From contig NZ_VTOW01000001.1 of the NCBI RefSeq assembly GCF_012184425.1, positions 1,240,001 through 1,304,000 of the forward strand: a DNA stretch of 64,000 bases, read 5' to 3'. Positions 1 through 16,059 of this stretch are shown here, piece after piece (within the stretch, counting starts at the first letter, position 1; each line of letters opens with the position of its first letter). This stretch comes from Candidatus Manganitrophus noduliformans (lineage in GTDB: Bacteria; Nitrospirota; Nitrospiria; SBBL01; Manganitrophaceae). The notes under the pieces were generated by a model. The model was not told where the DNA came from. It made no database searches and saw only the letters and a list, made by a program, of their open reading frames with translations. The position numbers and the translations under genes were made by a program.

Positions 1-14
1 TTGCCCACGGGCGC

Positions 15-27
15 GTTCACGTTTAAC
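15..27. repeat. short dispersed repeat, copy 1
   Basis: GTTCACGTTTAAC. Twelve bases (16-27) are the exact reverse complement of GTTAAACGTGAA at 5718-5729, and an 11-base version lies at 60315-60325. All copies are intergenic. Could be remnants of a small dispersed element; function unknown. Confidence 0.35.
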
Positions 28-145
28 AAAAAATTAATCCGAATTTAATGCGGGAACGACTTGGGAGTGGTAATCATAAACGTGGCGAAAATTCCGCCCT
101 CTTGCGGATGGAGAAAATCAGAAACCTAAATGTAGGGAGAAAAGG

Positions 146-379
146 ATGTACGGGATTGTTTTAGAGTATGGACTTCCGGTGATGATCGGTCTGGTCTTTG
201 TCAGCTTTCTCTGGGCGTGGGTCCTGACCGCGGTGAAACCGCCTCAGAAATCGGAAGACGAACGGATCACGGGGCGGGTCAATCCGGACTGGAGGTTTCT
301 TGATGCAGGCCCCGAGGGGGTGAGAAGAAATATTTTCGAGAGGATTGAGCGACCGCGTGTTTTGAAAAGACACGTGTGA
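146..379 (+). CDS. small single-span membrane protein
   Basis: Hypothetical 77-residue protein that I do not recognise. Residues about 5-30 form one hydrophobic membrane segment; the rest is a charged tail rich in Arg, Glu and Pro that probably faces the cytoplasm. A good Shine-Dalgarno (AGGGAGAAAAGG) precedes the ATG at 146, which supports a real gene. The gene is convergent with the response-regulator gene that follows on the other strand, so no operon context is available. Function unknown. Confidence 0.6.
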   Translation: MYGIVLEYGLPVMIGLVFVSFLWAWVLTAVKPPQKSEDERITGRVNPDWRFLDAGPEGVRRNIFERIERPRVLKRHV

Positions 380-439
380 GAATCCTACGAATGACCGATC
401 CGGATAGTATTTTATATCGCAAAGCGTTCGCGGTAGGTT

Positions 440-823
440 TTAAACCCGGTCGGTCTTGTTCAGATAGCTTCTGACCTTCGCCAGAAGATTGGACGGGTCG
501 ATCGGTTTGATGAGGATCTCTTCTGCGCCGGCTTCGACGGCTTGTTGCCGAGAGGCGGGATCGGCAAATTTGGCGCTGATCATCAGAATGGGAATGAGGC
601 GATAAGCGGGGTTTTGTTTAAGCGCGCGGCAGACCCTCAATCCATCGACGCCGGGCATCATGAGGTCGAGGAGGATCAGATCCGGATGTGCCCACCCGAC
701 CTTTCTCAGCGCTTCATCGCCATCGTTCGCGAAAGTGACCTCATAGCCTTCTCCACTCAGAGATCGAGCAAAGAGCTGACGCGCATCTTCGTTATCGTCG
801 ACGATGAGTATCCGCTTCGGCAT
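440..823 (-). CDS. single-domain response regulator (receiver only)
   Basis: CheY-like receiver of 127 residues with no output domain. The acidic pocket is D9/D10, the phospho-acceptor is D53 in LILLDLMMPG, a Ser takes the switch Thr/Ser position (MISAK) and the conserved Lys sits in LIKPIDP. Such proteins relay phosphate or act by protein-protein contact. No histidine kinase lies next to it, so its partner is elsewhere. It has the same stand-alone design as the receiver at 49020, although that one is coupled to an HD-GYP gene. Confidence 0.9.
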   Translation of the reverse strand: MPKRILIVDDNEDARQLFARSLSGEGYEVTFANDGDEALRKVGWAHPDLILLDLMMPGVDGLRVCRALKQNPAYRLIPILMISAKFADPASRQQAVEAGAEEILIKPIDPSNLLAKVRSYLNKTDRV

Positions 824-1036
824 GCGCGGGTCTCCCTGGGTGAGGCTCGCGTTATCTAAAAGATGTCTGCTCGAAATAAGTGTGACTTGGGTTGCAAGTC
901 ACAATCCAAGCTTTTTACTCAGGCTCATCTCTACTCTTTTTTTAAAATGTAATCAATCCCCTCATTTCCCTACAGACGACCTAATCGGTATTCCAACCGT
1001 CCTAAATACGATGATTCCCCTGAGAGAGAAGCGACT

Positions 1037-2494
1037 TTAGCGCCACCCTTTCGCCAGCGCGAGCGTCTTCTCCCATCCGCGATAAAGCGCCTCCCGCTCG
1101 GCTTTCCCCATGCGGGGAGAGAACGTTTCCTTCAGGGGAGAGAATTGAAAGACCCTTCGGTCGGCGGCGCCGATCGCTTCGCCCGCCAGGAAGGCGGCGC
1201 CGCGGACCGTCGATTCGGGATCGTGCGTCGCCGTGATCGGCTTGCCGAAGAAGTCCGATTGGATCTGGAGGAGGCTTTTGATTTGCGAGCCCCCTCCGCT
1301 CGCGATGATTTTCCGGACCGGGATCGGCTCCTTCGTTTGAAGGGCGTGAAGGATATCGGTCATCAAGAAGGCGATCCCTTCCACCGCGCCCCGGACGAGA
1401 TCTTCCTTGCGGGACGCGCCGGTCAGCCCTACGATGCTTGTCGGAACCCGATTGTCCCAATGGGGCGCGCCGAGGCCGATCAGCGCGGGGAGGAAGAAGA
1501 TCCGCTCTTTCGATCGGGCGCAGGCGGCGTCGACCGCCGCTTCCGATCCGATCAGCCCAAGATCGCGCAGCCAGGCGAAGAGGGGGCCGATGCCGTTGAC
1601 CGTTCCCTCCACCAGGTAAGTCGTCTCATTTTCGTTCGACCAGGCGATGCTGGTGAGAAGCCCCGGAACGGCGCACCGCTTCGGGCCGGTGTTGACGAGG
1701 AAAAAGCCGCCGGTCCCGTAGTTCACATTTGCAATCCCTTCCCGGAGTCCCCCCAGGCCGGCGAGCGACGCCTGCTGGTCGCCGATGCTGCAAGTGATCG
1801 GAAGATGAACCCGGTCGATCACCGCCTCGCCGAAGGCCGACTGCGTCGGAGCGACCGCGGGGAGGATCGCCCTGGGAATGCCGAAGTGGTCGAGCAGGCC
1901 GTCGTCCCAATCGCCCCGGTCGAGGCTGTAGAGGAGCATCCGGGCGGCGTTGGTCGGATCGGTTTGATGGACTTTCCCTTCGGTGAGATGCCAGATCAAA
2001 AAAGCATTCACCGTCCCGCAGAGGAGATCCCCGATCGATCGTTTTTCTCTTTTGAATCGATCGAGGAGCCAGGCAAGTTTGGCGGCGGAGTAGTAGGGGG
2101 TGAGGGGGAGGCCGGTTTTCGCGGCGAAGTCGGGACCTTCCCAGCGGGAGAGGAGGTCGCCGGCCCGCCGGTCTTGCCAGCTGATCGCCGGGGAGATCGC
2201 CTTGCCGCTTTTCCGGTCCCAGCAGATGAAGGTGGAGCGCTGGTTGGCGATGCCGAGGGCGATCGGCGCCCTTTCCAATCGCTTCGCCTCCCGAAGGACC
2301 TTCCGGAGAACGGCCCGAACACCGCTCAACATCTCCTCCGGATCATGCTCCACCCATCCCGGTTTGGGAGTGTCGGTTCGAAGCGGGGCTTCGGCGCGGG
2401 CGAGCGGCTTGCCTTTTAGATCAAAGAGGACCGCCCGGGAGCGGCTGCTCCCCTGGTCCAACGCCGCAATGGCCCAGCGAGAGGAAGAGGGCAT
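1037..2494 (-). CDS. FGGY-family carbohydrate kinase, GlpK-like
   Basis: 485 residues, the usual glycerol kinase length. The N-terminal phosphate loop DQGSSRSRA (residues 13-21), the segment PKPGWVEHDP, the IGDQQASL aspartate motif and the GLGAPHWD / SGGGSQ regions all follow GlpK. Reaction in the family: ATP + glycerol to glycerol-3-phosphate. One substrate contact is altered: the Arg-Glu pair that binds glycerol in E. coli (R83-E84) reads R86-S87 here (NQRST), while the Trp, Tyr and Asp contacts are kept. The substrate may therefore be another polyol. No glpF or glpD is nearby; the TPR gene follows three bases downstream on the same strand. Confidence 0.8.
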   Translation of the reverse strand: MPSSSRWAIAALDQGSSRSRAVLFDLKGKPLARAEAPLRTDTPKPGWVEHDPEEMLSGVRAVLRKVLREAKRLERAPIALGIANQRSTFICWDRKSGKAISPAISWQDRRAGDLLSRWEGPDFAAKTGLPLTPYYSAAKLAWLLDRFKREKRSIGDLLCGTVNAFLIWHLTEGKVHQTDPTNAARMLLYSLDRGDWDDGLLDHFGIPRAILPAVAPTQSAFGEAVIDRVHLPITCSIGDQQASLAGLGGLREGIANVNYGTGGFFLVNTGPKRCAVPGLLTSIAWSNENETTYLVEGTVNGIGPLFAWLRDLGLIGSEAAVDAACARSKERIFFLPALIGLGAPHWDNRVPTSIVGLTGASRKEDLVRGAVEGIAFLMTDILHALQTKEPIPVRKIIASGGGSQIKSLLQIQSDFFGKPITATHDPESTVRGAAFLAGEAIGAADRRVFQFSPLKETFSPRMGKAEREALYRGWEKTLALAKGWR

Positions 2495-2497
2495 TCG

Positions 2498-3190
2498 TTA
2501 ACGCGTCCCGGAGGCGGTGAGTAGGTGAAAGCGCGCCTTGTAGGCCCAAAGGCGATCTTGCCTCTTCTTGAACGAGGGGGAGAGCTTGAAGATTTCGATC
2601 GCCTTCCGGAAACTCTCGGCGGCCCCGGCCCGATTGCCGACCTGAAGCTGGAATTGCCCGAATTTGTAGTAGCCCTCCGGGCTCGAGGAGTGGATCGAGA
2701 AAAAACGGTCAAAGAAAGTCTGCGCCTCCTGGACCCGCCCCCTCTTTCCATAGTGTTCCGCGAGGCGGAGCGCCGGTTCGCCGTACCGGAACTTGGGATT
2801 TTTCTCCAGCGCCTTGAGGATCAACGCCTCCCCGTCGACCTCGCGGCCGGTCACAAGAAAGGCGAGGCCGAGGTAGTAGATCGTCTCCTCGGTGTCGGAG
2901 AGCCGCTCGTAAGCGCGCTCCAGATAGGGGAGCGCTTGATGCTCCTTGCCGCGCATCACCAGAAGACGCCCCAGGTCGCTCAGGGCGGCGGCGTTATGCG
3001 GATTCAGCGCCACCTCTTTCTTTAATCCGGAGATCTCCGACTCCAGCCGAAAGATCTGAACCCCCCGGCGGAGAAACCCGGTGAACTGGTAGTCGAAGGC
3101 CAAGTAGATGCCGAGGATGACGAGGATCGCGAGGAGGGGGCTTCCGGTGAAAAGCATGACGATGTAAAAAATAAGAAACCGTGACAGCAT
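2498..3190 (-). CDS. membrane-anchored TPR protein
   Basis: 230 residues. Residues about 1-32 form one or two hydrophobic segments (short hydrophobic N-terminus, then LLAILVILGIYLAF), followed by a charged stretch and about four tetratricopeptide-type helical pairs (ALSDLGRLLVMRGK, YYLGLAFLVTG, AEHYGKRGRVQEA, KFGQFQLQVGNRAGAAESF). It is probably an inner-membrane scaffold with the repeats in one soluble compartment. Its start lies upstream of the kinase gene on the minus strand and the two are separated by only three bases, so they are likely co-transcribed, TPR gene second. Function unknown. Confidence 0.75.
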   Translation of the reverse strand: MLSRFLIFYIVMLFTGSPLLAILVILGIYLAFDYQFTGFLRRGVQIFRLESEISGLKKEVALNPHNAAALSDLGRLLVMRGKEHQALPYLERAYERLSDTEETIYYLGLAFLVTGREVDGEALILKALEKNPKFRYGEPALRLAEHYGKRGRVQEAQTFFDRFFSIHSSSPEGYYKFGQFQLQVGNRAGAAESFRKAIEIFKLSPSFKKRQDRLWAYKARFHLLTASGTR

Positions 3191-3397
3191 TGATTCTCCT
3201 AAGGGGTCAATATTCTATCCTATTCAATAAACATCGGTTTGTCAAAAGGGCGGAGATCCTGATTGGATCCGGTTTTGTCGGGGGGCGAGGCACGCCCTGC
3301 CCCTACGATAGACTGACTACATCGGAAAGTGGATCATTGATCTGATCTGTCATTTGGAGTACGATGATGAGGGGATTTAACGCGAGACGGGACGAAG

Positions 3398-4786
3398 ATG
3401 AGATATATTGTTTTTTGTGATGATTCCTTTTTTTATCAGGTATTAAAGAGCCACCGCGAGGCCGGGAGCGCCTGGCTTTTCGTCGTGCAAGAGCCCGAGC
3501 TTGCCGACTGGCTTCAGAAGAAAAAGGTTCCGGTGATCCAGGGTCCCTTCTCCGCTCAAGCGACCTATCAACGGGCGAAGATCGGCCGCGAGGACCGCGT
3601 GATCATTGCGCTCTCCAAGACCAAGCTATTCAGCCCGATTTTGAGGCTCCTTTCGAAAGAAAAGGTCCGGCCTTCGCTGCTGCTCTCCCGGAACAAGGAG
3701 GCGGTCGATCTCGGCTCTCCCGATCTGAAGGTGGTCTCCTGCACCGATCTTCTCTCCTCTCCGCTTTTCTGGGAGCTTCGGGCGATCTCGCTTCGCGAGA
3801 AGACCCGGGAGATCCACCGGATCTTGGGAGAAGCGGAGCGGGTCTTGATCCTTGTCCAGGATGATCCCGATCCCGACGCCATCGCGTCGGCCCTGGCGCT
3901 CCGGACCCTGCTGGGCCGGAACAAGCTGACCGCGCCGATCGCCTCGTTCGGGGTGGTCGATCGTCCCGAAAACATGGCGATGCTCAAGCATCTTGAGATC
4001 GAAGTCGACCGGATCGACGCCAAGCGTCTCTCCGGCTATGACCGGATCTGCTTCGTCGACACCCAGCCGAGCCGTTTCCCGGTCAAGTTTCCGCGGATCG
4101 ACGTGGTGATCGACCATCATCCGGAGGAGAAGGGATACCATGCGGCCTATCGGGAGATCCGGTCGAACCAGGGGGCGACCTCGACCGTGATGACCGAGTA
4201 TCTGCGCGCCGAAGATGTCAAAATCAGCCATCGGCTCGCCACGGCCCTCCTCTATGGAATCGGAACCGACACCGCCTTCTTGGAGCGGGGGACCCATCCC
4301 GGCGATGTGGAGGCGTTCTCCTTTCTTTATCCGCTGGCAAACCATGGCCTCATCCGGCAGATCGAGCGTCCGGAGTTCCCGCAAGAGGAGGCCGGTTTCG
4401 TTCAGAAGGCGATCCGCCGGTGGCGGATCGAACATCGCCTTTTGGTGTCGCACTTGGGACAGGTTCCCCGCCAGGATATCGTCCCGCGGTTGGCCGACTT
4501 CTTCACCCAAGTGGAGGGAATCGACTGGTCGGTTCTCTCCGGGATCGTGGGGGGAAATCTGATCGTCTCCGCGAGAAACATGGGGAAGAGCGGAAACGCG
4601 GGGAGCCTCATGAAAGAGGCGTTCGGTTCCTACGGGCGAGCCGGCGGGCATCGGTTTATGGCCAAGGCGGTGATGCCGTTGAAGGGCTTCCGGGAAGTGT
4701 TCGGACGGGCGGACGAGCGGTTCGTTCGGGACCTGATCTTCGATCGATTGGCCGATCTTCTCCAGCGAGAGGCGGTGGCGGTATGA
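3398..4786 (+). CDS. TrkA_N-DHH-DHHA1 phosphodiesterase, putative c-di-AMP hydrolase
   Basis: 462 residues. Residues about 1-100 resemble a TrkA/RCK N-terminal Rossmann domain (MRYIVFCDDS start, later VIIALSK). DHH domain: motif I is QDDPDPD at 154-160 (the usual first His is Gln), DTQ at 221-223, DHH at 239-241 and GIGTDT further on. DHHA1 domain ends with GRAGGH around 413-418. DHH-DHHA1 proteins of the GdpP/DhhP type cleave c-di-AMP or small oligonucleotides using Mn2+. The stop overlaps the start of the next gene, a diadenylate cyclase (ATGA), which is the main reason for calling the substrate c-di-AMP. An nanoRNase role (NrnA-like) remains possible. Confidence 0.8.
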   Translation: MRYIVFCDDSFFYQVLKSHREAGSAWLFVVQEPELADWLQKKKVPVIQGPFSAQATYQRAKIGREDRVIIALSKTKLFSPILRLLSKEKVRPSLLLSRNKEAVDLGSPDLKVVSCTDLLSSPLFWELRAISLREKTREIHRILGEAERVLILVQDDPDPDAIASALALRTLLGRNKLTAPIASFGVVDRPENMAMLKHLEIEVDRIDAKRLSGYDRICFVDTQPSRFPVKFPRIDVVIDHHPEEKGYHAAYREIRSNQGATSTVMTEYLRAEDVKISHRLATALLYGIGTDTAFLERGTHPGDVEAFSFLYPLANHGLIRQIERPEFPQEEAGFVQKAIRRWRIEHRLLVSHLGQVPRQDIVPRLADFFTQVEGIDWSVLSGIVGGNLIVSARNMGKSGNAGSLMKEAFGSYGRAGGHRFMAKAVMPLKGFREVFGRADERFVRDLIFDRLADLLQREAVAV

Positions 4787-5706
4787 AAAAGGGTTATTCC
4801 GCGGCAGAGAAGCCGGGCTTCGATATGAACGATGTTTTCCTCTCGGCCGCCTCGGACGTGGCGGCCGGCGTCGGGGCGCAGGCGATCCTGCTTTATGCCG
4901 ACCTGTTGACCGATTATACGCCGCTGAAGATCCTTTCCAAGGAATTGAACCTGATTTTGGTGGCCCGCGGGGAGCGCGCCTATCAGCGGGCGCAGCGTTA
5001 TTTTGAAAAGGTGGTCCGGGTGCCCCAGATCGAATTGACACGGATGGGGCAGATGAAGCTGGGGGTGATGATGGGTCTTTCCGCCGGGCTGGTCCGGGTG
5101 GGGGATCGAATCGTTTGTCTCTCCGGAATCGGCCGCTTCGGCTTTCTCGACAGCATCGTGGTCCTCGATATCGGGAGGGAGTTCGAGATCTTGACCTCGG
5201 CCGACCTGACCGATCTTTCCAGAGAAATCCGATACGATGTCTTCGAGGCGATCCTCAGCCTGGCGGTGGAGCTGGCCTATCAGGGCCGGGCCGGGAAAAT
5301 GGTTGGAGCCCTCTTTGTCCTGGGGGACCATGAGCGGGTCTTGCAGCTCTCGCGGCAGATGATCATCAACCCCTTCCACGGCTATCCCGAAGAGGAGCGG
5401 AATCTCATCGATCCGATGCTGAAGGAGACCCTCAAGGAGTTCTCGGCGATCGACGGCGCGTTTGTGATCCGGGAAGACGGGGTGATTCTCTCCGCCGGGC
5501 GGCATCTCGACGCCTCCTTCGAAGGGAAGGATCTCCTGCAAGGTCTCGGCAGCCGGCACTTGGCGGCGGCCGGCATCACAGCGGTGACGCAGGCGCTGGC
5601 GGTGGTGGTTTCCGAATCGACCGGCACGGTCCGCATTTTCAAAGGGGGAGAAATTATCCTCGAACTGGAAAAGGCGGTGCACCGAGACCGGGGAGCGTCG
5701 TCCTAA
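4783..5706 (+). CDS. diadenylate cyclase (DAC/DisA_N domain), CdaZ/DacZ-like
   Basis: 307 residues from ATG 4783; an in-frame extension back to 4420 lies inside the upstream gene and is rejected. The C-terminal half is a DAC domain: GALFVLGD at 175-182, DGA at 224-226 and GSRHL at 256-260, followed by ALAVVVSESTGT. These are the two nucleotide-binding signatures that condense two ATP to c-di-AMP; canonical RHR is RHL here. Residues about 10-140 have no membrane segments and look like a pyruvate-kinase C-terminal (PK_C) fold, an arrangement I associate with archaeal CdaZ/DacZ rather than CdaA. Translationally coupled to the DHH phosphodiesterase. Likely cytoplasmic. Confidence 0.85.
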   Translation: MKKGYSAAEKPGFDMNDVFLSAASDVAAGVGAQAILLYADLLTDYTPLKILSKELNLILVARGERAYQRAQRYFEKVVRVPQIELTRMGQMKLGVMMGLSAGLVRVGDRIVCLSGIGRFGFLDSIVVLDIGREFEILTSADLTDLSREIRYDVFEAILSLAVELAYQGRAGKMVGALFVLGDHERVLQLSRQMIINPFHGYPEEERNLIDPMLKETLKEFSAIDGAFVIREDGVILSAGRHLDASFEGKDLLQGLGSRHLAAAGITAVTQALAVVVSESTGTVRIFKGGEIILELEKAVHRDRGASS

Positions 5707-5709
5707 TAA

Positions 5710-5835
5710 CGTTATTCGTTAAACGTGAATTGTTAAACGTAAAGGCAATCCCATTTCAAGAAATAAGAGAACGCTCAGGAATAACAAATGACGTCTCGCA
5801 AACAACGATTAACTATTAACGCTTAACGAATAACG
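5710..5835. repeat. intergenic element with 13-bp terminal inverted repeats
   Basis: The gap between the cyclase and permease genes is bounded by CGTTATTCGTTAA (5710-5722) and its perfect reverse complement TTAACGAATAACG (5823-5835). Inside are two direct copies of GTTAAACGT (5718-5726 and 5732-5740). The DNA is AT-rich compared with the flanks. It could be a small non-autonomous element or a long-range hairpin in the mRNA; no coding potential is seen. Confidence 0.55.
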
Positions 5836-5841
5836 GAAAAA

Positions 5842-6909
5842 GTGGAAGCAAGACGAGAGGGACGTTGGGGGTGGCTGGCGATCCTGGCGCTTGGGATCGG
5901 GATTATCTATTTAGCCGGCAGCATTCTTATCCCGTTTCTGATCGCCTTTCTTCTGGCTTATGCCTTCGATCCGGTCGTTCTCTTCATGGAGCGCAGGCGG
6001 ATTCGCCGTCCTTTCGCGATCTGGTTCGTCATTCTCATCATCGCCGCCGCCCTTGTTCTCTTTTTGCTGGTGGTGATCCCGATTATCCAGGAAGAGATCA
6101 CCCGCGCCCTGGAGCAGCTTCCCCGCTATCTTGAACATGTTCGGACCGCTTTCCTTCCCTATCTGGAGGAGCGGTTCGGCATTCATATTCCGAAGACGTA
6201 TGAGGAGATCACGGAGACTGTCCTTCCCCGTTTGAGAGAGGAGGCGCCGAACATTTTCCGGCCGGTGACGGCCGTCCTTCTCTCCTTCTTCTCGAACACG
6301 GCGTATCTCCTCGCCGCCATCGCAAACCTGATCGTCATCCCGTTTGCTTTTTATTATTTCCTGAAAGATTTCGAGACGCTGAAGGCGACGGTCTGGGGGT
6401 ATGTTCCTCCGAGGCATCGGCCCGAAGTCTCCCGGTGGCTTCATGAGCTCGACCGGTCGCTGGCAGGATTCATCCGGGGGCAGCTCCTCGTGATTCTCTT
6501 CCTTGCGGTCTTATACGGAATCGGTCTGACCCTCATCGGCGTCGACCTGGCTTTCGTTCTCGGGATCATCGCCGCCTTCGGCGAAATCGTCCCTTATGTC
6601 GGCTTCATCGTCGGGCTCTCCCTCTCCATCCTGGTGAGCCTGCTCCAATTTCAGGATTTTCTCCACCCGCTTTATGTCATTTTTCTCTTTGCGGCGGTGC
6701 AATCGGTTCAGGGATTGGTCGTCGCCCCGCTCGTCATGGGGCAGCAGGTGGGGCTTCATCCGCTGGTCGTGATTGCGGCGGTCTACATCGGAGGGGATCT
6801 TTTCGGTTTCGTCGGGATTCTCCTGGCGGTTCCCGGCGCGGCGGTCGTCGTGGTCCTCTTCAAAGCCTTGGCCGATCACTATAGGCGCTCTCCGCTCTTC
6901 AGAGCGTAG
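5842..6909 (+). CDS. AI-2E/PerM family transporter
   Basis: 355 residues from a GTG start at 5842. Two N-terminal membrane hairpins (about 10-80), a soluble insert (about 85-150), then paired helices to the C-terminus, including the family-typical stretch around LAGFIRGQLLVILFLAVLYGIGL and the later GxPxxVGFIVG-like IVPYVGF motif. The family (PF01594) contains eight-helix inner-membrane proteins for which export of autoinducer-2 or Na+/H+ exchange has been proposed. It follows the c-di-AMP gene pair by 135 bases on the same strand, but the inverted-repeat element between them makes co-transcription uncertain. Confidence 0.85.
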   Translation: MEARREGRWGWLAILALGIGIIYLAGSILIPFLIAFLLAYAFDPVVLFMERRRIRRPFAIWFVILIIAAALVLFLLVVIPIIQEEITRALEQLPRYLEHVRTAFLPYLEERFGIHIPKTYEEITETVLPRLREEAPNIFRPVTAVLLSFFSNTAYLLAAIANLIVIPFAFYYFLKDFETLKATVWGYVPPRHRPEVSRWLHELDRSLAGFIRGQLLVILFLAVLYGIGLTLIGVDLAFVLGIIAAFGEIVPYVGFIVGLSLSILVSLLQFQDFLHPLYVIFLFAAVQSVQGLVVAPLVMGQQVGLHPLVVIAAVYIGGDLFGFVGILLAVPGAAVVVVLFKALADHYRRSPLFRA

Positions 6910-6913
6910 AGCG

Positions 6914-7864
6914 TTAATTCGGAATATATTCCGCCAATCCCCAGACCCGCTCTTCGGTGGTCCCCGTTTTGAGCACCCCTTCGATCGACATGAGGTAGTA
7001 TCCCCCCCAGATCCAATTTTTGGAGGCATTTCCACGCGACCAGATGAACAAGGTGCCGACGGAGGGGGCATCGATCTTCCACCGCTGCGGCACGGTGTAG
7101 AAGGCGAAGGAGGGATGGGTGCTGTCGAGGAGGGAGAGAGGGATCGGCGGTTTGAAAAAGTAGGTTGATTCGGGGCCCGATCGGACCAGCCCCCCCTCCG
7201 GGAGGAAGGTTTCCGACAGGCCGTATTTGTTGAGAAACTCCTGCGGGTTCGATTTATTCCGGTGCAAGTAGATTTCGCGCCCCTTCTCGGTGATGAGATA
7301 GAAGGAAAGGTACTCTTTGAAGAGTCCCTTGTAGCGTTTTAAACCGTTGAAGCCTTGCCAGATGACCGTCTCGTGAACCAGTTCTCCCCAATGCTCCTGC
7401 CCGCGAATATTGAGAACCGCCTCGGCCACGCCGAGCTGTTTTTGCAGGGTCTTCCCCGCATCTGGGGTGTAGAGGGGCTGGGTCGGCCCGCTGGAGAGAT
7501 TGAGGGTGAAATCCCCCCCGTCGTAGCGAAGCTTGAATCCGGAAACGGCCGATCCGTCCGCCTTCGCGAAATAAGAGGGCTGAATGATTTCCAGGTTCCC
7601 CGGTTTATAGAAATATTTATCGTTTCCCTCCAGAAACCACCATCCGGTCTGGGTGAACACCGCGCCGAAGAACTCCCCATAGTACTTCTCTCCCTCTTTC
7701 CCTCGGCTGAAATTAAGGATGACCAATGTCAGATCATCGACCTCTTTACTCCGGAAAACAAAGCGATCGGAGTAGTAGAGGGTCTCCGGCTCGCCGAAGG
7801 AGAGGGGGGGGAGCAGCAGGGTAAAACTGATGAGGGTCAATAGGGTGATGAGCTTGCGTTTCAT
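6914..7864 (-). CDS. exported protein of unknown function
   Basis: 316 residues from ATG 7864. A longer frame to 7933 exists, but the Met at 7864 begins a typical Sec signal peptide (MKRKLITLLTLISFTLLLPP, cleavage near LSFG-EP). The mature part is rich in aromatic residues and short beta-type strands (WFLEGNDKYFYK, YLITEKGREIYLH, FIWSRGNASKNWIWGGYY), suggesting a periplasmic beta-rich or lipocalin-like fold, perhaps AttH/hydroxyneurosporene-synthase-like, but no motif is decisive. The gene lies 93 bases downstream of the giant repeat protein gene on the same strand and may be co-transcribed with it. Confidence 0.65.
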   Translation of the reverse strand: MKRKLITLLTLISFTLLLPPLSFGEPETLYYSDRFVFRSKEVDDLTLVILNFSRGKEGEKYYGEFFGAVFTQTGWWFLEGNDKYFYKPGNLEIIQPSYFAKADGSAVSGFKLRYDGGDFTLNLSSGPTQPLYTPDAGKTLQKQLGVAEAVLNIRGQEHWGELVHETVIWQGFNGLKRYKGLFKEYLSFYLITEKGREIYLHRNKSNPQEFLNKYGLSETFLPEGGLVRSGPESTYFFKPPIPLSLLDSTHPSFAFYTVPQRWKIDAPSVGTLFIWSRGNASKNWIWGGYYLMSIEGVLKTGTTEERVWGLAEYIPN

Positions 7865-7957
7865 TTTTTGATGTTGCCATGGTGGAAGGAGCAAGTCAAC
7901 TGATTTGCCGTTCTCCGGATGGAAAGTCGGCATTCCGGATCGGCGTCTTGATGGTTT

Positions 7958-10900
7958 TTACGGCCGGTTTTTTCGCAGGCGTCGAGCCGTCAGAATCAGG
8001 GCCAGCAGGGCGACCCCGCCCCAGGGGTATGCGATCAAGAGGACCAACGGGGTCAGCGTCCAACGGACGACCGTTCGGAGGGAATCATGCTTGCGGATGA
8101 CGTCGGCGATCGGCGGCGAGGCGCGGTAGTAGGCCTCGACGAAGAGACGTCCCGGAAGATTCGTCAAAAGAGAGCGGTCTCTGAAGTCCCGAAGGATCTT
8201 GACGTGCGGGTCGAGATAGCTGCCGTACGCCGCAGTGGCGATAAAGCAGCCTCCGCCCCCGCCGAGGGGAGGGGGCGGCGCCGCGCCCGCTTTGAAGGCC
8301 GGGCCGGCGATATTCTCGATGACGCCGTTCGCGGCATGATCGCCGTCTCCCATGCCGCCGTCTTTCAGCGTCATGCGGATGGTATTTCCGCCGGAGAGGA
8401 GCGACCCAGTCGCTTCGACCGTCACAAACTGATTGTTCTGTGAATCGTACCAGAGCCACTGGGGCTGTCCCTCGCCGGAGATCGGCTCCGGGAAGGTGGT
8501 GCTGACGACCGCTTCCTCCCCGGGGGCCAGTCCCTGGAGTTTGAAGGAGAGGACGCCGTAAGGGAAGGTCGTGTCGGCCGGCGGCACGGTCAGATTCGCA
8601 AGATCGCCGATGTCGATTCGCTCAAAGGCCCCCGCGGAGGTGGTCATGACGATCGCCCCGCGCGGGCTCGATAACGTGACGGTTCCCGAAACGCCGACCT
8701 GCGGCCCGGTCAGGGGGACGGCCGGCGTCGGCGCGGCCGGAGAGGCGATCGCCTGCAGCCCGGTGGCGTCGACGGCGTCGAAATAATAGGTGTAATCGAA
8801 CCCCGCTTGAAGGAGGCGGCTGTAGTTGTAGACGGCCCCGGCCGCGGGGGTTCCTTTCTCAAAGAGCATTTCGAACGGACTCCCGGCGATTTCTTTTCCA
8901 CCCTGCAGAAGGTGAACCCTCGGATAGCCGGGGAGCGGCGGGTTGTTGTCGGGATCGGTATACGTCACGCGGAATTTGAAAGATGTGCCGTTGACCGTGC
9001 CGGTTTCCGGGTCGAGCCCGTCGGTCTGATAGTTCGGCTCGCCGGTCCATTTCAGCGTCGGAGGGGCGCCGGACGATTTCGGGGTGGTCAGATGCGATTC
9101 CGGGATCACCTGCCAGCCGATCGAATTCGACGACCAGTTGAGCTGAAGGAGGGCCTGTCCCGTGTTTTCGGAATATTCGAGCTTGATGTCGTGCAGGCCG
9201 GAGGCGTTGAACGCCACCCCTTTCTCCAGGGAGACGAGATGGTCGGTCTGCTCCCAATGGTCGATCACCAACGCCCCGTCGATCCAGAGGCGGACGCCGT
9301 CGTTGGTGATGATGTTGAAGAGGTACGATTCGGCGCGATCGATCTGGATCTGCCCGGTCCAGCGGATGGAGAAGGTCTCCGGATCGATCCCTTGGATGGG
9401 GGGGCCCGAGCCCCATCCGGTGAAATCGATTTTCGGATCGGTTTGCGTCAACATCGGTCCGGTCAGATCGGGGGTGTTGAAGTATTCCCCTTTCAACCCG
9501 TTGCAGGTGACCGTCAAGGTCAGCCCCACCGACTGGGTCAGGAAGCCGCCGGCGCCGGTGACCGTGAGGTTGTAATCGCGGCATTCGACCGTCCCATCGA
9601 TGTTGAGGGTCAAGGTCGGTTTGATCGATCCGTTGCCGGGCGGGGCGGCGGGATTGGGAGAGAAAGTGCCAGTCACCCCGGCGGGCGCGCCGGTCAATGT
9701 CAGCGTGACCGGCGAGGTGAATCCCTGCATTGACGCGATATTATAGGAGACCGATCCGGAGGTTCCTTTCTGAATGGCGACCGAGGCGCTGTTCGCGGAG
9801 AGGGTAAACCCGTTGGCGAAGGTGGCGCTGACCGTCTTGTTGCTGTCGAGCGTCAGGGTGCAGGTGGTCTGTGTGCCGGAGCAGGCCCCTCCCCAGTTCT
9901 GAAAAGGGGCGCCCGCGGCGGGAACGACGGTCAGGGTGATCCGGGTGCCGGGGCTGAGCGGGCCGGAGGTGCAGGTCGTCCCGCAATCGATTCCTCCCGG
10001 AGTGCTCGTGACGAGGCCGTTCCCGGTCCGGCTCACGGTGAGGGTGAAGGTCGGCGGCGCGGTGAAGGTGGCGGTGACGCTCCTGGCGGCATCGGTGGTC
10101 ACCACGCAATTGCCGGTCCCGGCGCAGGCTCCGGACCAGCCGGTAAAGGTGGAATTGCCGGTGGGGGCGGCGGTCAACGTCACCGTCGACCCGATGTTAA
10201 ATGAGAAGGAGCAGGTTGCGCCGCAATCGATTCCGGAGGGGTCGGAAGTGACTGTCCCGGTTCCGGTTCCCGCCTTGACGACCGAGAGAGCGAAGGTTTT
10301 GAGGGTGAAACCAGCGGTGACCGACTTGGCGGCATCCATCGTCACGGCACAAGTGGCCTGACTATCGCTGCAGGCGTTCCCCCCCCAGCCGGTAAAGGTG
10401 GCGTGGGTGTCCGGGGTGGCGGTAAGTGTGACCTGGACGCCGATGTTAAAAGTGGCCGAACAGGCGCCGCCGGCGCCGCAGCTGATGCCGGCAGGGTTAC
10501 TGGCGACGGTCCCGTTTCCTGAGGTCGTGACGGAGAGGGTAAAGGTCCTCAATGCGAAGGTGGCGGCCACGTTTTTCGCGTCATCGATCGTCACAATGCA
10601 ATTGCCGGTACCGGAACAGGCGCCGGACCATCCGGTGAAGGTCGAATTGGTTGCGGGAGCGGCGGTCAAGGTCACCTGTGTTCCGGAATCATAAGACTGG
10701 TTACAATCTGTTCCGCAATTGATGCCGGTCGGACTGCTTGTCACCGTCCCGGTTCCTGTTCCGGTTTTGGTCACGTTCAACCTAAATGTTTTGAGCGTAA
10801 ATGTCGCGGTGACCGACTTTGATTGACTCATCGTGACGGAGCAGGAAGTTCCATTGGTGCTGTTGCAGCCGGACCAGCCGGTGAAGTCGAAATTCGCGTC

Positions 10901-13900
10901 GGGTGCGGCCGTCAGGGTGACTTGGGTGGTGAAGTTGCCGAAGGATTGTGAGCAGTCGGTTCCACAGCTGATCCCGGCGGGGTCGCTGGTGACGGTTCCG
11001 CTCCCAGTTTTCGTCACGGTCAGAACCGGCTTGAGGGTGAAAGCGGCCGTCACCGTCTTCGCGGCGTCGATCGTTACGACGCAGGCTACGGTGCCGCTGC
11101 AGGCCCCGCTCCAGCCGGTAAAGAGGGAGTCGGTGTTGGGAGAGACGGTCAAGGTAACCTGTGTCCCGGCGTTATAGGAGGCGTTGCAATCTGTTCCGCA
11201 ATCGATCCCGGCCGGACTGCTCGTTACCGCCCCGGTTCCTGTCCCGGTTTTGTTCACCGTCAGTGCAAAGGTCTTGAGCGTGAATGTGGCGGTGACCGAT
11301 TTCGCCGCGTCGACGGTCACGTTACATGGCGCCGTTCCGGTACAGCCTCCACCGGACCAGCCGGTGAAGTCGGAGTTCGGGGTAGGGGCGGCGGTCAGGG
11401 TCACCTGGGTGTTAATCGTGTACGGCTCCGAGCAATCGGTCGGGCAGTTGATCCCCGCCGGGCTGCTCGTGACCGTTCCGCTGCCGTTTCCGGCCAGGGT
11501 GACGGAGAGTCCTAAGCTTTTTAACGTAAATGTCGCCGTGACCGTCTTTGCCGCGTCCATCGCGACGGTGCAGGTTCCCGTTCCGGCGCAGCCTCCGCCG
11601 GACCAGCCGGTGAAATTCGAGTTAACGTCCGGCGCAGCGGTGAGGGTGACCGAAGTGTTGAGGTTGTAAGTTTCGGAGCAATCGGTTCCACAATCAATTC
11701 CGGCGGGGCTGCTCGTTACCGTCCCGGCGCCGCTTCCCGCTTTTGAAACGCCGAGTGGGAAGCGTCTTGTGAAATTCGCCGTAACCGATTTGGCGGCATC
11801 CAAAGTGACGGAGCAGGTCGCGGCCCCTCCGCTGCAGGCGCCGGACCAGCCTGAGAAGGCCGAGTCCGAGTCGGCAGTGGCGGTGATAAAGACGAGGGTG
11901 TTGAAAGTGTAGGTTTCAGAACAGTCGGTTCCGCAACTGATCCCAGCGGGACTGCTGGCGACGGTGCCGGTTCCGCTTCCCGATTTTGTAACGGTGAAGG
12001 TAAATGTTTTTAACGTGAAATTGGCCGTGACCGATTTGGCCGCGTCCATCGTCACGGAGCAGGGGCCGGCGCCGGAGCAGGCCCCGCTCCAGCCGGTGAA
12101 GTCGGAGTCGTCCCCCGGCGTCGCGGTGAGGGAGACAAGGGTGTTGATTGTGTATGTTTCCGAGCAATCGGCCCCGCAGTTGATCCCGGCCGGACTGCTG
12201 ACGACCGTTCCGGTTCCCGTCCCACTCTTCGCCAGAGTGAGGCCGAAGGTCTGACGGTTAAAGTTGGCCGTGACCGATTTGGCGGCATCCATCGTCACGA
12301 CACAATTGCCGGTCCCACTGCATGCCCCCGACCAGCCGATGAACACAGAATCGGCGGAAGGGGGGGCGGTGAGGGTGACCGTGGTCCCGGTCGTGAAGGT
12401 AAACGAACAGGTCGCCCCGCAGTCGATCCCGGCCGGGCTGCTCGTGACGGTGCCGCTCCCCGTTCCGGCCTTCGTTACCGCGAGACTGAAAGTCTGCACA
12501 TTAAAGGTCGCCGCGACGCTCTTCGCGGCGTCCATTGTGACGAGACAGGTTCCGGTTCCGGTTCCGGAACAAGCGCCGCTCCAGCCTGCGAAGATGGCGC
12601 CGGCCGAAGGGGCGGCCGTTAATGTCACAGAGGCGCCTGAGCCAAACGAGGCGGAGCAAGTTGCGCCGCAATCGATTCCGGCGGGGGAGGAGGTGACGGT
12701 CCCCGTACCTGTTCCGGTTTTGGTGACTGAGAGATTGAGGGTTTGTAGGGTGAAGTGGGCACTGACCGATTTGGCCGCGTCGATGGTGACCACACAGCTT
12801 CCTGTGCCGCTGCATCCTCCCGACCACCCGGCGAACACGGAATTACCGGCGGGCGCGGCGGCGAGGGTGACTGTGGTCCCGGTCGTGAAATTAAAAGAGC
12901 AGGTCGTCCCGCAGTTGATCCCGGCCGGACTGCTCGTGACGGCTCCCGTGCCTGTCCCGGCCTTGGCGACCGAAAGACTGAACGTTTGCAGGTTAAAGAT
13001 CGCGGTGACCGACGTGGCGGCGTCGATCGTCACGGAGCAGGCACCGGTTCCCGAGCAGGCGCCGCTCCACCCTGCGAAAAGAGAGTTGGCCGACGGGGTT
13101 GCGGTTAATGTCACTGAAGCGCCCGCGTTAAAAGAGGCGGAGCAGGCGGCGCCGCAATTGATTCCTGCGGGAGAAGAGGTGACCGTTCCGGCTCCGGTCC
13201 CCGTCTTGGCGATCGAGAGGGTGAAATTCTTCAGGGTGAAGGTGGCGGTCACCGACCTGGCCGTATCCATTGTGACGTTACAGCTCCCGGTTCCGCTGCA
13301 CGCGCCCGACCAGCCGGTGAAATCAGAATCGGCCGATGTTGTCGCGGTGAGGGTCACGGCGGTCCCGGCGTTGAAGTTGGAGGCGCAGGCGCCGCCGCAG
13401 TCGATCCCGGCAGGGGAGGAGGTCACGGTTCCTGTGCCGGTTCCCCCTTTATTCACGGTTAGCGCAAAGGTCTGAATGTTGAAGGTGGCGGTGACCGATT
13501 TTGCGGCGCTCATCGTCACGGTGCAGGAGGTTCCCGCAGCGCTGTCGCAGCCCGACCAGCCGGCGAAGATTGAATTGGCGGAGGGTGCGGCGGTCAGCGT
13601 GATCGATGTCCCATTGTTAAAAGATGCCGAGCAGGTCGCACCGCAGTTGATTCCGGCCGGGTTGCTCGTTACTGTTCCGGTTCCCGACCCGTTTTTGGCG
13701 ACGGTGAGGGTAAAGCTTTTCAGTGTAAATGTCGCCGTGACCGATTTGGCCGCATCCATGGTGACGACACAAGGACCGGTTCCCGTGCAGGCGCCGGACC
13801 ATCCGGTGAAGTCGGTATCCTCGGCCGGCGCCGTGGTAAGGGTCACGGTCGTGGCGGCGTTGAAGAACGCGGAACAGCTGCTGCCGCAGTCGATGCCGGC

Positions 13901-15487
13901 GGGGGAAGAGGTGATGGTCCCGGTTCCGTTGCCGAGCTTGTTGACCGTGAGAGAGTAGGTCTGAACCCCGAAGCTGGCGGCGACCGAGCGGTCGGTGTTC
14001 ATGGCGAGGTCGCAGGTGTTCCCGGCGGCGCTGTCGCAACCGGACCAGCCGGAGAAGGTAGCGCCCCCGGCCGGGGTGGCGGTCAGCTGGACTGCGGCGC
14101 CGATGGTGAAAGAGGCCGAGCAGACGTTTCCATTTGCGCCGCAGTTGATCCCGCTGACATCGCTGGTCACCGTCCCGTTTCCGGCGGTGGCGACCGAGAG
14201 AGTAAAGGTTTTCAGTGTAAATGTTGCGGCGACCGATCGGGCCGCATCCATCGTGACGGTGCAGTTTCCGGTTCCGGTGCAGGCGCCGGACCATCCGGTG
14301 AAATTAGAATTGGCCGACGGAGCGGCGGTTAATGTCACCGGCGTTCCGAAGCTGAAAGAAGCGGAACAGGTCGCGCCGCAGTTGATTCCGGCCGGACTAC
14401 TGGTGACGGCTCCCCCGCCGTTTCCCGATTTCGCGACCGACAGGGTAAAAACTTTTAATGTGAACGTCGCGGTGACCGTCTTTGCCGCATTAATTGTCAC
14501 GGTACAAGAAGTTCCGGAAACGTTGTCGCAACCGGACCAACCGGTGAAGTCGGAATCTCCAGAGGGAAGAGGAGAGAGGGTCACGGCCGTTCCACTGCTA
14601 TAAATCGCGGAGCAGGCGGCGCCGCAATTGATACCGGCCGGAGAAGAGGTGACGGTACCGGATCCCGTGCCGCTCTTTGTGACCGTCAGGGGGAAGGTCT
14701 GAAGAGTGAAGGAGGCCGTCACCGTTTTTGCGGTGTTCATCGTCACGGTGCAGGAGGTTCCCGAGGCGCTGTTGCACCCCGACCATCCGGTGAAGGTGGA
14801 ATTCGCAGCCGGGGCGGCGGTGAGGGTGACCGAAGCATTGATATTAAAGGGGGCGGAACAGGTTGCCCCACAATCAATCCCTGCAGGCGAGGAGGTGACG
14901 GTTCCCGTTCCGGTGCCTGATTTTGTGACCGACAAGGCGACCGGCGGCTGATAGATGATCTCTGCAAAAAGTTCGGTGATCCGAAGGTCTGTCGATCGGT
15001 CGGTGTTGTCCACGAGCGCATTCAAGGCGTTGATTTCCGCCCATGTCCATGCAGTCCCTGTGCTCGGATTCGTTGAATGGAGAACGCCGGAATAGAGCTG
15101 GTAGGAGTCGCCCGCGTCGAGCGTACTACTCCAAAAATCGGCCCCGTTGGTTCTCAAGCCGATTCGGAATTCGCCGTCGCCTCGAAAGCCGCCGTCGCTT
15201 CTGAGGACCCCTCTGATGCGCACCGAAGTGATGGTTCCTGAATTTGCCGAATCGTCCAGCGCAAGGCGCGCCGTATCTTCAGAGGAGAGGTCTCCGTACG
15301 AGGTGCTTCCGTCGTTTGTGTCGAGCGCGGTGACGGCGGTGCCGCCGACGTATTGGTCGGTCTGATCGCCGGATGCGCCGCCGGAAGGATGAAGGATGAG
15401 GGTGTCGGCATAGGCGGAGCCGCTCCAGAAGAAGAGGGTTGCCAAGACGAGCAGGGCAATCGTTGTACAAAGAAAGGGTTGCTTCAT
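7958..15487 (-). CDS. giant secreted repeat protein, PA14, CFI-box C-terminus
   Basis: 2509 residues. Order: Sec signal peptide (1-27), a beta-rich head to about 184, then 21 tandem units of about 80 residues (DNA about 9815-14940) built as [17 protein letters not shown]-[DN]-CG-x2-C, later TGWSGAC-x4-C and SVTATFTLK. These match the divergent InlB-B/bacterial repeat family. Next come an Ig-like segment, a PA14 domain ([26 protein letters not shown]), a choice-of-anchor U-like region ([17 protein letters not shown]) and a CFI-box C-terminus ([13 protein letters not shown], hydrophobic helix, basic tail). Most repeats carry two Cys pairs, so many disulfides are expected. Likely a surface adhesin or fibre anchored or processed through the C-terminus. 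Confidence 0.9.
9815..14940 (-). repeat. 21 tandem in-gene repeats of about 240 bp
   Basis: Degenerate tandem array inside the giant protein gene, about 5.1 kb. Every unit encodes the SSPAGI-[DN]-CG core, with variants such as GNVC or GAGGAC insertions in units 4 and 19 and shortened openings in units 4, 17, 19 and 21. Units diverge enough that no long perfect DNA identity stands out, so the array is old or under selection to diversify. Confidence 0.85.
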
Positions 15488-16059
15488 GGACCTTTTTTTT
15501 TACTTTGTCTTCCTTGTTCTGGTTCTTTATACGTTATACGTTTACAGAGCGTCTTCGGGCTTGAGAGCGCGTTGATTCCCAAAGGGAATCCTATAGGATG
15601 GGATATCCCCCGAACCGACAATCCCCTCGTAAAAGGGGTGACTGGTGTCGTTTGGGTTCTTCGAACATGTATGGATGAAGCGACGAAAACCAGAACGCAA
15701 AGGCATGATGATAGTGATAATGAGGATGCCTGCGGAATGAAGCAGCCGGAAAAACGATCGAAGGATAAAACCCTGCAGGGGTATGTTGTAATTAGGTTCT
15801 TGCTACCCTCCTTGGTTTGGTTCTTTAGGTGCAAAAGGATACTTAGAGTGTTGTCCTAAAAATCCCTGAAACACCTTCTTACATTTCCGGTCGGAATGCA
15901 AGCAAAAATTCATTAAATATTGAACTTTTTCGTTTCCATTTCTTTGGAGGTCGGCAACACCACCTTAAGTGCGCGACGCCGACGCGGCCGACGGCCCTTT
16001 GATTGACAACTTAGGGTTTGGCATCTATCCTTACTTTATGGGAATAGAGAGGGGCGCAA
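15488..16059. other. 572-base intergenic region, no gene seen
   Basis: Divergent region between the giant repeat protein (minus) and a small membrane protein (plus). Short frames here have unnatural composition and no ribosome-binding site. It contains a palindrome ATCCTATAGGAT near 15592, a CCCC/GGGG hairpin near 15622-15638, an AT-rich stretch around 15905-15925 and the plus-strand promoter at 16003-16031. A promoter for the 7.5-kb minus-strand gene must lie here, but I cannot assign one. Confidence 0.6.
16003..16031 (+). promoter_or_regulatory. sigma-70 type promoter
   Basis: TTGACA (16003-16008), 17-base spacer, TATCCT (16026-16031). It lies 29 bases before the ATG of the 88-residue membrane protein. 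Confidence 0.6.

Follow-up and report, generated by a model that had tools for sequence, protein, structure and literature searches.

A conserved gene pair for a DacZ-family diadenylate cyclase and a candidate c-di-AMP phosphodiesterase in Candidatus Manganitrophus

Two overlapping genes of Candidatus Manganitrophus noduliformans (Table 1) appear to form an operon for the turnover of c-di-AMP, with a DacZ enzyme as the maker and a DHH protein as the breaker under common control; we put the probability of this reading at about two in three. They lie in the window analysed here, a 64,000-nucleotide stretch of contig NZ_VTOW01000001.1 (positions 1,240,001 to 1,304,000), to which genomes of Candidatus Manganitrophus and Manganitrophaceae (Nitrospirota) are closest. 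The domains of the two products, the conservation of the genes and their linkage are direct observations, and apart from NrnA the genome has no other recognised enzyme of c-di-AMP turnover. Judged from sequence, this is a real and conserved pair of known enzyme families, in which the pairing itself, the altered metal centre of the DHH protein and its degenerate RCK_N domain are new. A literature search for c-di-AMP work naming Nitrospirae gave no match, with partial coverage, and an earlier report of the pair is possible.

Table 1. Features of the gene pair and its surroundings (L numbers denote compared loci; other coordinates are those of the window).
Feature	Coordinates	Strand	Remarks
Gene 1, RCK_N-like/DHH/DHHA1 protein, 462 aa; probable c-di-AMP (and pApA) phosphodiesterase	3398-4786	+	
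Gene 2, DacZ (CdaZ)-family diadenylate cyclase, 307 aa	4783-5706	+	DacZ_P sensor-like domain, residues 19-138; DAC domain, residues 165-290
ATGA start/stop overlap of genes 1 and 2	4783-4786	+	Identical 4-nt overlap in L002, L003, L099, L104 and L105
N-terminal domain of the DHH protein (residues 1-140)	3398-3817	+	TrkA/RCK_N fold; glycine-rich nucleotide loop absent
Promoter-like site TTGATC-17-TACGAT	3337-3365	+	Upstream of the pair; kept in five Manganitrophaceae loci
AI-2E family transporter	5842-6909	+	Pfam AI-2E_transport, E 4.9e-66; conserved downstream neighbour, candidate transcript member only
Frameshifted dacZ	L004 5997-6914; L102 2926-3803		Manganitrophus isolate GAC4 and G302

The product of gene 2, the sole DAC protein of the genome, can be assigned to the DacZ (CdaZ) family of diadenylate cyclases and is archaeal in style. 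The Pfam domains DAC (85.5 bits, E 2.6e-24; cut-off 27) and DacZ_P (59.6 bits, E 3.2e-16; cut-off 27.4) both score over threshold, and in our tree the protein groups with DacZ and is split from the Nitrospirota CdaA proteins at 100/100, in agreement with the first-pass annotation, which had proposed a CdaZ-like cyclase from the sequence of the window. It had also likened the soluble N-terminal domain to PK_C; such a domain is present, but PK_C scores 14.6 bits, under its cut-off of 28, and DacZ_P is the better name. The NF041371 profile matches residues 32-296 with 158.9 bits and misses its equivalog cut-off of 430, which was set for haloarchaeal orthologues, such that the miss excludes that subgroup and not the wider DacZ family. 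Like Haloferax volcanii DacZ and M. jannaschii CdaZ (NF041371; PF21755 + PF02457), the protein has its DAC domain behind a soluble DacZ_P/PK_C-like domain, and it shares their clade and their DGA and GxRH motifs. It is unlike haloarchaeal DacZ in being bacterial and in having a DHH protein as its operon partner, where the haloarchaeal gene has an mscS channel gene (PMC6741144). Haloferax DacZ makes c-di-AMP (PMC6741144). The motifs lie at residues 224-226 (DGA) and 256-260 (GSRHL), and the DG of the former is invariant in the cyclase comparison, as is the NPF block. The RHL found in place of RHR had been offered as a deviation that could tune activity, a suggestion we reject: the DacZ proteins collected carry L, R, Y or H as the third residue, with H in Haladaptatus DacZ, and since this position varies in a family whose Haloferax member makes c-di-AMP, the leucine is unremarkable.

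Gene 1 codes for a protein with the Pfam domains DHH (42.9 bits, E 7e-11; cut-off 28.1) and DHHA1 (28.3 bits, E 2.5e-6; cut-off 25.9), and the best PDB matches of its AlphaFold2 model (pLDDT 84) found by Foldseek are the GdpP catalytic domain (E 3e-17), T. maritima TM1595, S. aureus NrnA/Pde2 and Borrelia DhhP, which bears out its earlier description as a DHH-DHHA1 protein of phosphodiesterase type. Among the Pfam families that the first-pass annotation had proposed for the two proteins, DAC, DHH and DHHA1 are therefore over their cut-offs, and TrkA_N and PK_C are under. The two-domain fold, five of six metal ligands, the second His of DHH and the GGH motif are common to the GdpP catalytic domain, TmPDE (TM1595), Pde2/NrnA, CnpB, DhhP and the protein described here. 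It departs from these known c-di-AMP phosphodiesterases in having Gln at the first metal-ligand His and an N-terminal RCK_N-like domain, whereas GdpP has membrane, PAS and GGDEF parts and the others have nothing. Membership of GdpP was rejected, as Pfam finds only TrkA_N, DHH and DHHA1, and none of the transmembrane, PAS and degenerate GGDEF domains that precede them in GdpP. The motifs are at residues 239-241 (DHH) and 416-418 (GGH), with Gln154 at the motif-I His position; these and the cyclase motifs had been given correctly to the residue, and the ATGA overlap had been recognised.

The Deinococcus RecJ-like protein has six metal ligands (H34, D38, D40, D95, H121 and D171; PMC11229311), and by alignment and motif, rather than by superposed structure, the DHH protein keeps five of them (D158, D160, D221, H240 and D291), with Q154 replacing the sixth. 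The five ligands, R393 and GGH are invariant in all 23 Nitrospirota members, the homologues compared reaching down to about 32% identity; at the motif-I position 14 of the 23 have Gln and the other nine Tyr. The loss of this His, which had been listed as a deviation of the present protein, is thus a real change but not a private one. Since Gln replaces a metal-ligand His, and Ala at such positions almost abolishes the activity of the Deinococcus RecJ-like protein (PMC11229311), catalysis by the DHH protein may be weak or altered.

No GdpP is present in the genome, which also has no match to the PgpH-type 7TMR-HDED domain, and no Rfam c-di-AMP riboswitch is found in window positions 1-16000 or in the genome, so control by such a riboswitch was rejected. 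The remaining DHHA1 proteins, recognised by sequence and neighbours, are RecJ, AlaRS, an NrnA beside infB/truB, and a short DHH protein. Because neither GdpP, PgpH nor a c-di-AMP riboswitch accompanies the sole cyclase, the DHH protein is, as far as sequence can tell, the best candidate for the c-di-AMP phosphodiesterase of this genome.

Other roles for the DHH protein have to be weighed. Some proteins of DHH-DHHA1 type, such as NrnB, are nanoRNases that lack activity on c-di-AMP (PMC12709177), and the one encoded by gene 1 might be mainly an NrnA-like hydrolase of pApA and short RNA, clearing the product of another enzyme rather than opening c-di-AMP. The presence of NrnA/Pde2 among the closest solved structures and the annotation of haloarchaeal relatives as NrnA are consistent with this; however, a canonical NrnA is already encoded beside infB/truB, no other recognised c-di-AMP opener is present in the genome, and the DHH gene is strictly paired with the sole DAC gene, and we consider this role unlikely. 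The subfamily is far from the NrnA of the same genome (16% identity), and the tree agrees, although the NrnA branch is very long. It is very unlikely that loss of the motif-I His has crippled the DHH domain and left a protein that binds c-di-AMP to regulate the cyclase or potassium transport. Such a role would fit the Gln or Tyr at the first metal ligand in 23/23 Nitrospirota members and the His kept by haloarchaeal relatives, but a dead enzyme would have no need of the other catalytic residues, which are invariant in the same 23 sequences.

A further alternative concerns the N-terminal domain, which was first described as TrkA/RCK-like and scores 18.4 bits against TrkA_N, under the cut-off of 23.8. 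Folded alone (pLDDT 78.7), it is matched best in the PDB by TrkA TM1088, by the MthK RCK domain and by the KTN domain of Mja218 with NAD+ (1lss), with TM-scores by query of 0.58-0.67, and the top 39 Foldseek PDB matches are RCK, TrkA, KTN or KtrAB entries; alignment by hhalign with two RCK_N domains of the same genome gave a probability of 6%, from too few sequences. On the strength of these independent fold matches, the resemblance is real despite the sub-threshold score. The domain thus shares a predicted fold with the RCK_N/TrkA_N (KTN) domains of TrkA, KtrA and MthK, and is unlike them in having no glycine-rich loop, no RCK_C partner and a Pfam score under the cut-off. In none of 14 members does the N-terminus show the nucleotide motif of RCK_N, GxGxxG...D/E (PMC12453120), and their first 20 residues contain no Gly; in two sequences of Nitrospirota family f19 the loose pattern G.G..[GA] matches elsewhere in the domain. 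Non-synonymous change is about three times faster here than in the catalytic part (dN 0.41 versus 0.14, window against L099). Binding of NAD(H) or ATP/ADP by this Rossmann domain, switching c-di-AMP breakdown with redox or energy state, would be in keeping with a fold solved with NAD+ in one of its matches, but the missing motif and the fast divergence make it highly improbable, and the coupling to NAD(H) raised in the first-pass annotation is not supported, the loop being absent from all 14 homologues. For the same two reasons a role in docking or oligomerisation is likelier than NAD sensing. The suggested link to potassium through RCK is not supported either: KtrA binds c-di-AMP through its RCK_C domain, and the DHH protein has only an RCK_N-like one. 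There are eight RCK_C matches in the genome, on transporters or KtrA-like proteins where identified; the carriers include antiporter-like and other transporter proteins as read from their sequences, and the gene of a KtrA-like one adjoins TrkH/KtrB-like and MscS-like genes. These RCK_C proteins are possible c-di-AMP targets.

The DHH gene and dacZ are probably cotranscribed, as suggested by the overlap in the relatives checked and the promoter-like footprint upstream. The latter emerges when the sequences preceding the pair in the window, L002, L003, L004 and L099 are aligned, with a spacer of 17 or 18; the site is absent from the list given by a stricter consensus scan. Described earlier as fused by overlap, the genes do overlap and are not fused. 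It had also been supposed that synthesis and breakdown are made in fixed ratio from one mRNA; the single mRNA is probable, but cotranscription fixes neither protein nor activity ratios. Across Manganitrophus loci the order is DHH gene, dacZ and then an ORF of AI-2E-transporter size, and a divergent gene matching a TPR gene lies upstream of the DHH gene. The ORF 3' of dacZ has the same size in L002, L003, L004 and L099, and its N-terminal sequence is similar in L002, L003 and L099. Between dacZ and the AI-2E gene (5707-5841) there is a 31-nt inverted repeat, 87% complementary with arms 64 nt apart, pieces of which (33-37 nt, 86-91% identical) occur at five further places in the genome; the corresponding gaps in L002, L003 and L099 look unrelated. 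Farther along, on the minus strand (7958-15487), is a 2509-aa ORF with many similar repeats built on a 12-residue core, whose product is probably a surface protein, and L099 has a 2111-aa counterpart at the matching place.

An order-wide search of 18 genomes found the DHH gene in all six of the window's genus and in 0/12 others. All six keep the pair, and both genes are intact in five; in the sixth (G302, counterpart of L004, isolate GAC4) a 1-bp deletion, which may be a sequencing error, splits the dacZ frame. Identity to relatives is 70-97% for the DHH protein and 79-84% for the DAC protein, and both genes are under purifying selection. The pair is not a product of chance, since relatives keep both frames with the same overlap at dN/dS of 0.05-0.21. 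DAC is present in 171/296 Nitrospirota genomes, and in none of the seven surveyed genomes that belong to the order but not to the genus. DacZ_P occurs in ten of the 296, eight of them outside Manganitrophus, where it is mostly accompanied by another DAC match. All 15 genomes of at least 90% completeness that carry the DHH subfamily (P0001 match at E < 1e-50) also carry DAC, against 143 of the 254 better genomes overall, a comparison that ignores kinship. In the loci seen outside Manganitrophaceae, the subfamily never adjoins DAC, so that a single family carries the link. A general rule that DacZ adjoins a DHH enzyme was dropped, a Nitrospinota locus (L005) having no DHH neighbour. Other DacZ loci compared have no DHH neighbour save that of Nitrospirota genome G230 (L093, 7739-11387), where an 877-aa DHH gene lies downstream of the DacZ gene; judged by its sequence, this product resembles the A-adding tRNA nucleotidyltransferase. 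Family f19 (L040-L048) has the full-length RCK_N-like/DHH protein with no DAC neighbour; in L040 its gene has a TPR gene on one side and, on the other, genes whose products are S30AE-like, cytidylyltransferase-like and UvrB-interaction-domain proteins. Scans of IMG/VR found no relative with the DAC alignment and only two distant relatives (25-28%) with the DHH alignment. The pairing of cyclase and DHH gene is found in no other lineage examined here.

Haloarchaea are a group known to use DacZ. Their DHH relatives are 331-346 aa long and annotated NrnA (e.g. on Halobacterium salinarum and Salinigranum plasmids), most being about 29-35% identical to the catalytic part and far closer to it than the genome's own NrnA. 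Unlike the window's protein they have no RCK_N-like domain and keep the motif-I His, which for that reason is probably ancestral. Their genes are not beside dacZ in the records seen. One on a Halobacterium salinarum plasmid (L109, 3965-8879) neighbours a gene for a universal stress protein, with kdpC/kdpB about 2.5 kb away; in Salinigranum (L108) the relative adjoins an AI-2E transporter gene, a type also found near the window's pair. These relatives are candidates for the phosphodiesterase that breaks down c-di-AMP in Haloferax volcanii, an enzyme reported in 2021 to be still unknown (PMC8646023).

If the pair does form an operon for c-di-AMP turnover, the DacZ cyclase would join two ATP into c-di-AMP, with its DacZ_P (pyruvate-kinase-C-like) domain probably sensing some ligand, and the soluble DHH-DHHA1 protein would most likely cut c-di-AMP to pApA and AMP. 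A single promoter and translational coupling at the ATGA would place maker and breaker under joint control. The RCK_N-fold domain, its nucleotide binding lost, would more likely dimerise or dock, possibly on the RCK-gated potassium and antiporter proteins of the cell, and the physiological output would be potassium and osmotic balance. A bolder combination, quite unlikely as a whole, is that this is a distinct class of c-di-AMP phosphodiesterase with a rebuilt (Gln/Tyr) metal centre, that in Manganitrophus its nucleotide-free RCK_N domain docks on potassium transporters gated by RCK domains, and that the c-di-AMP phosphodiesterases still missing from archaea are its haloarchaeal relatives. Were the docking to hold, c-di-AMP would be destroyed where and when it is bound. 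The Gln or Tyr at a metal ligand across the whole subfamily poses a clean biochemical question, and the linked cyclase and DHH genes, together with the haloarchaeal DHH relatives, name a concrete candidate family for the archaeal phosphodiesterase. Manganitrophus, a manganese oxidiser, would gain a defined second-messenger module that may be relevant to its control of potassium and osmotic state.
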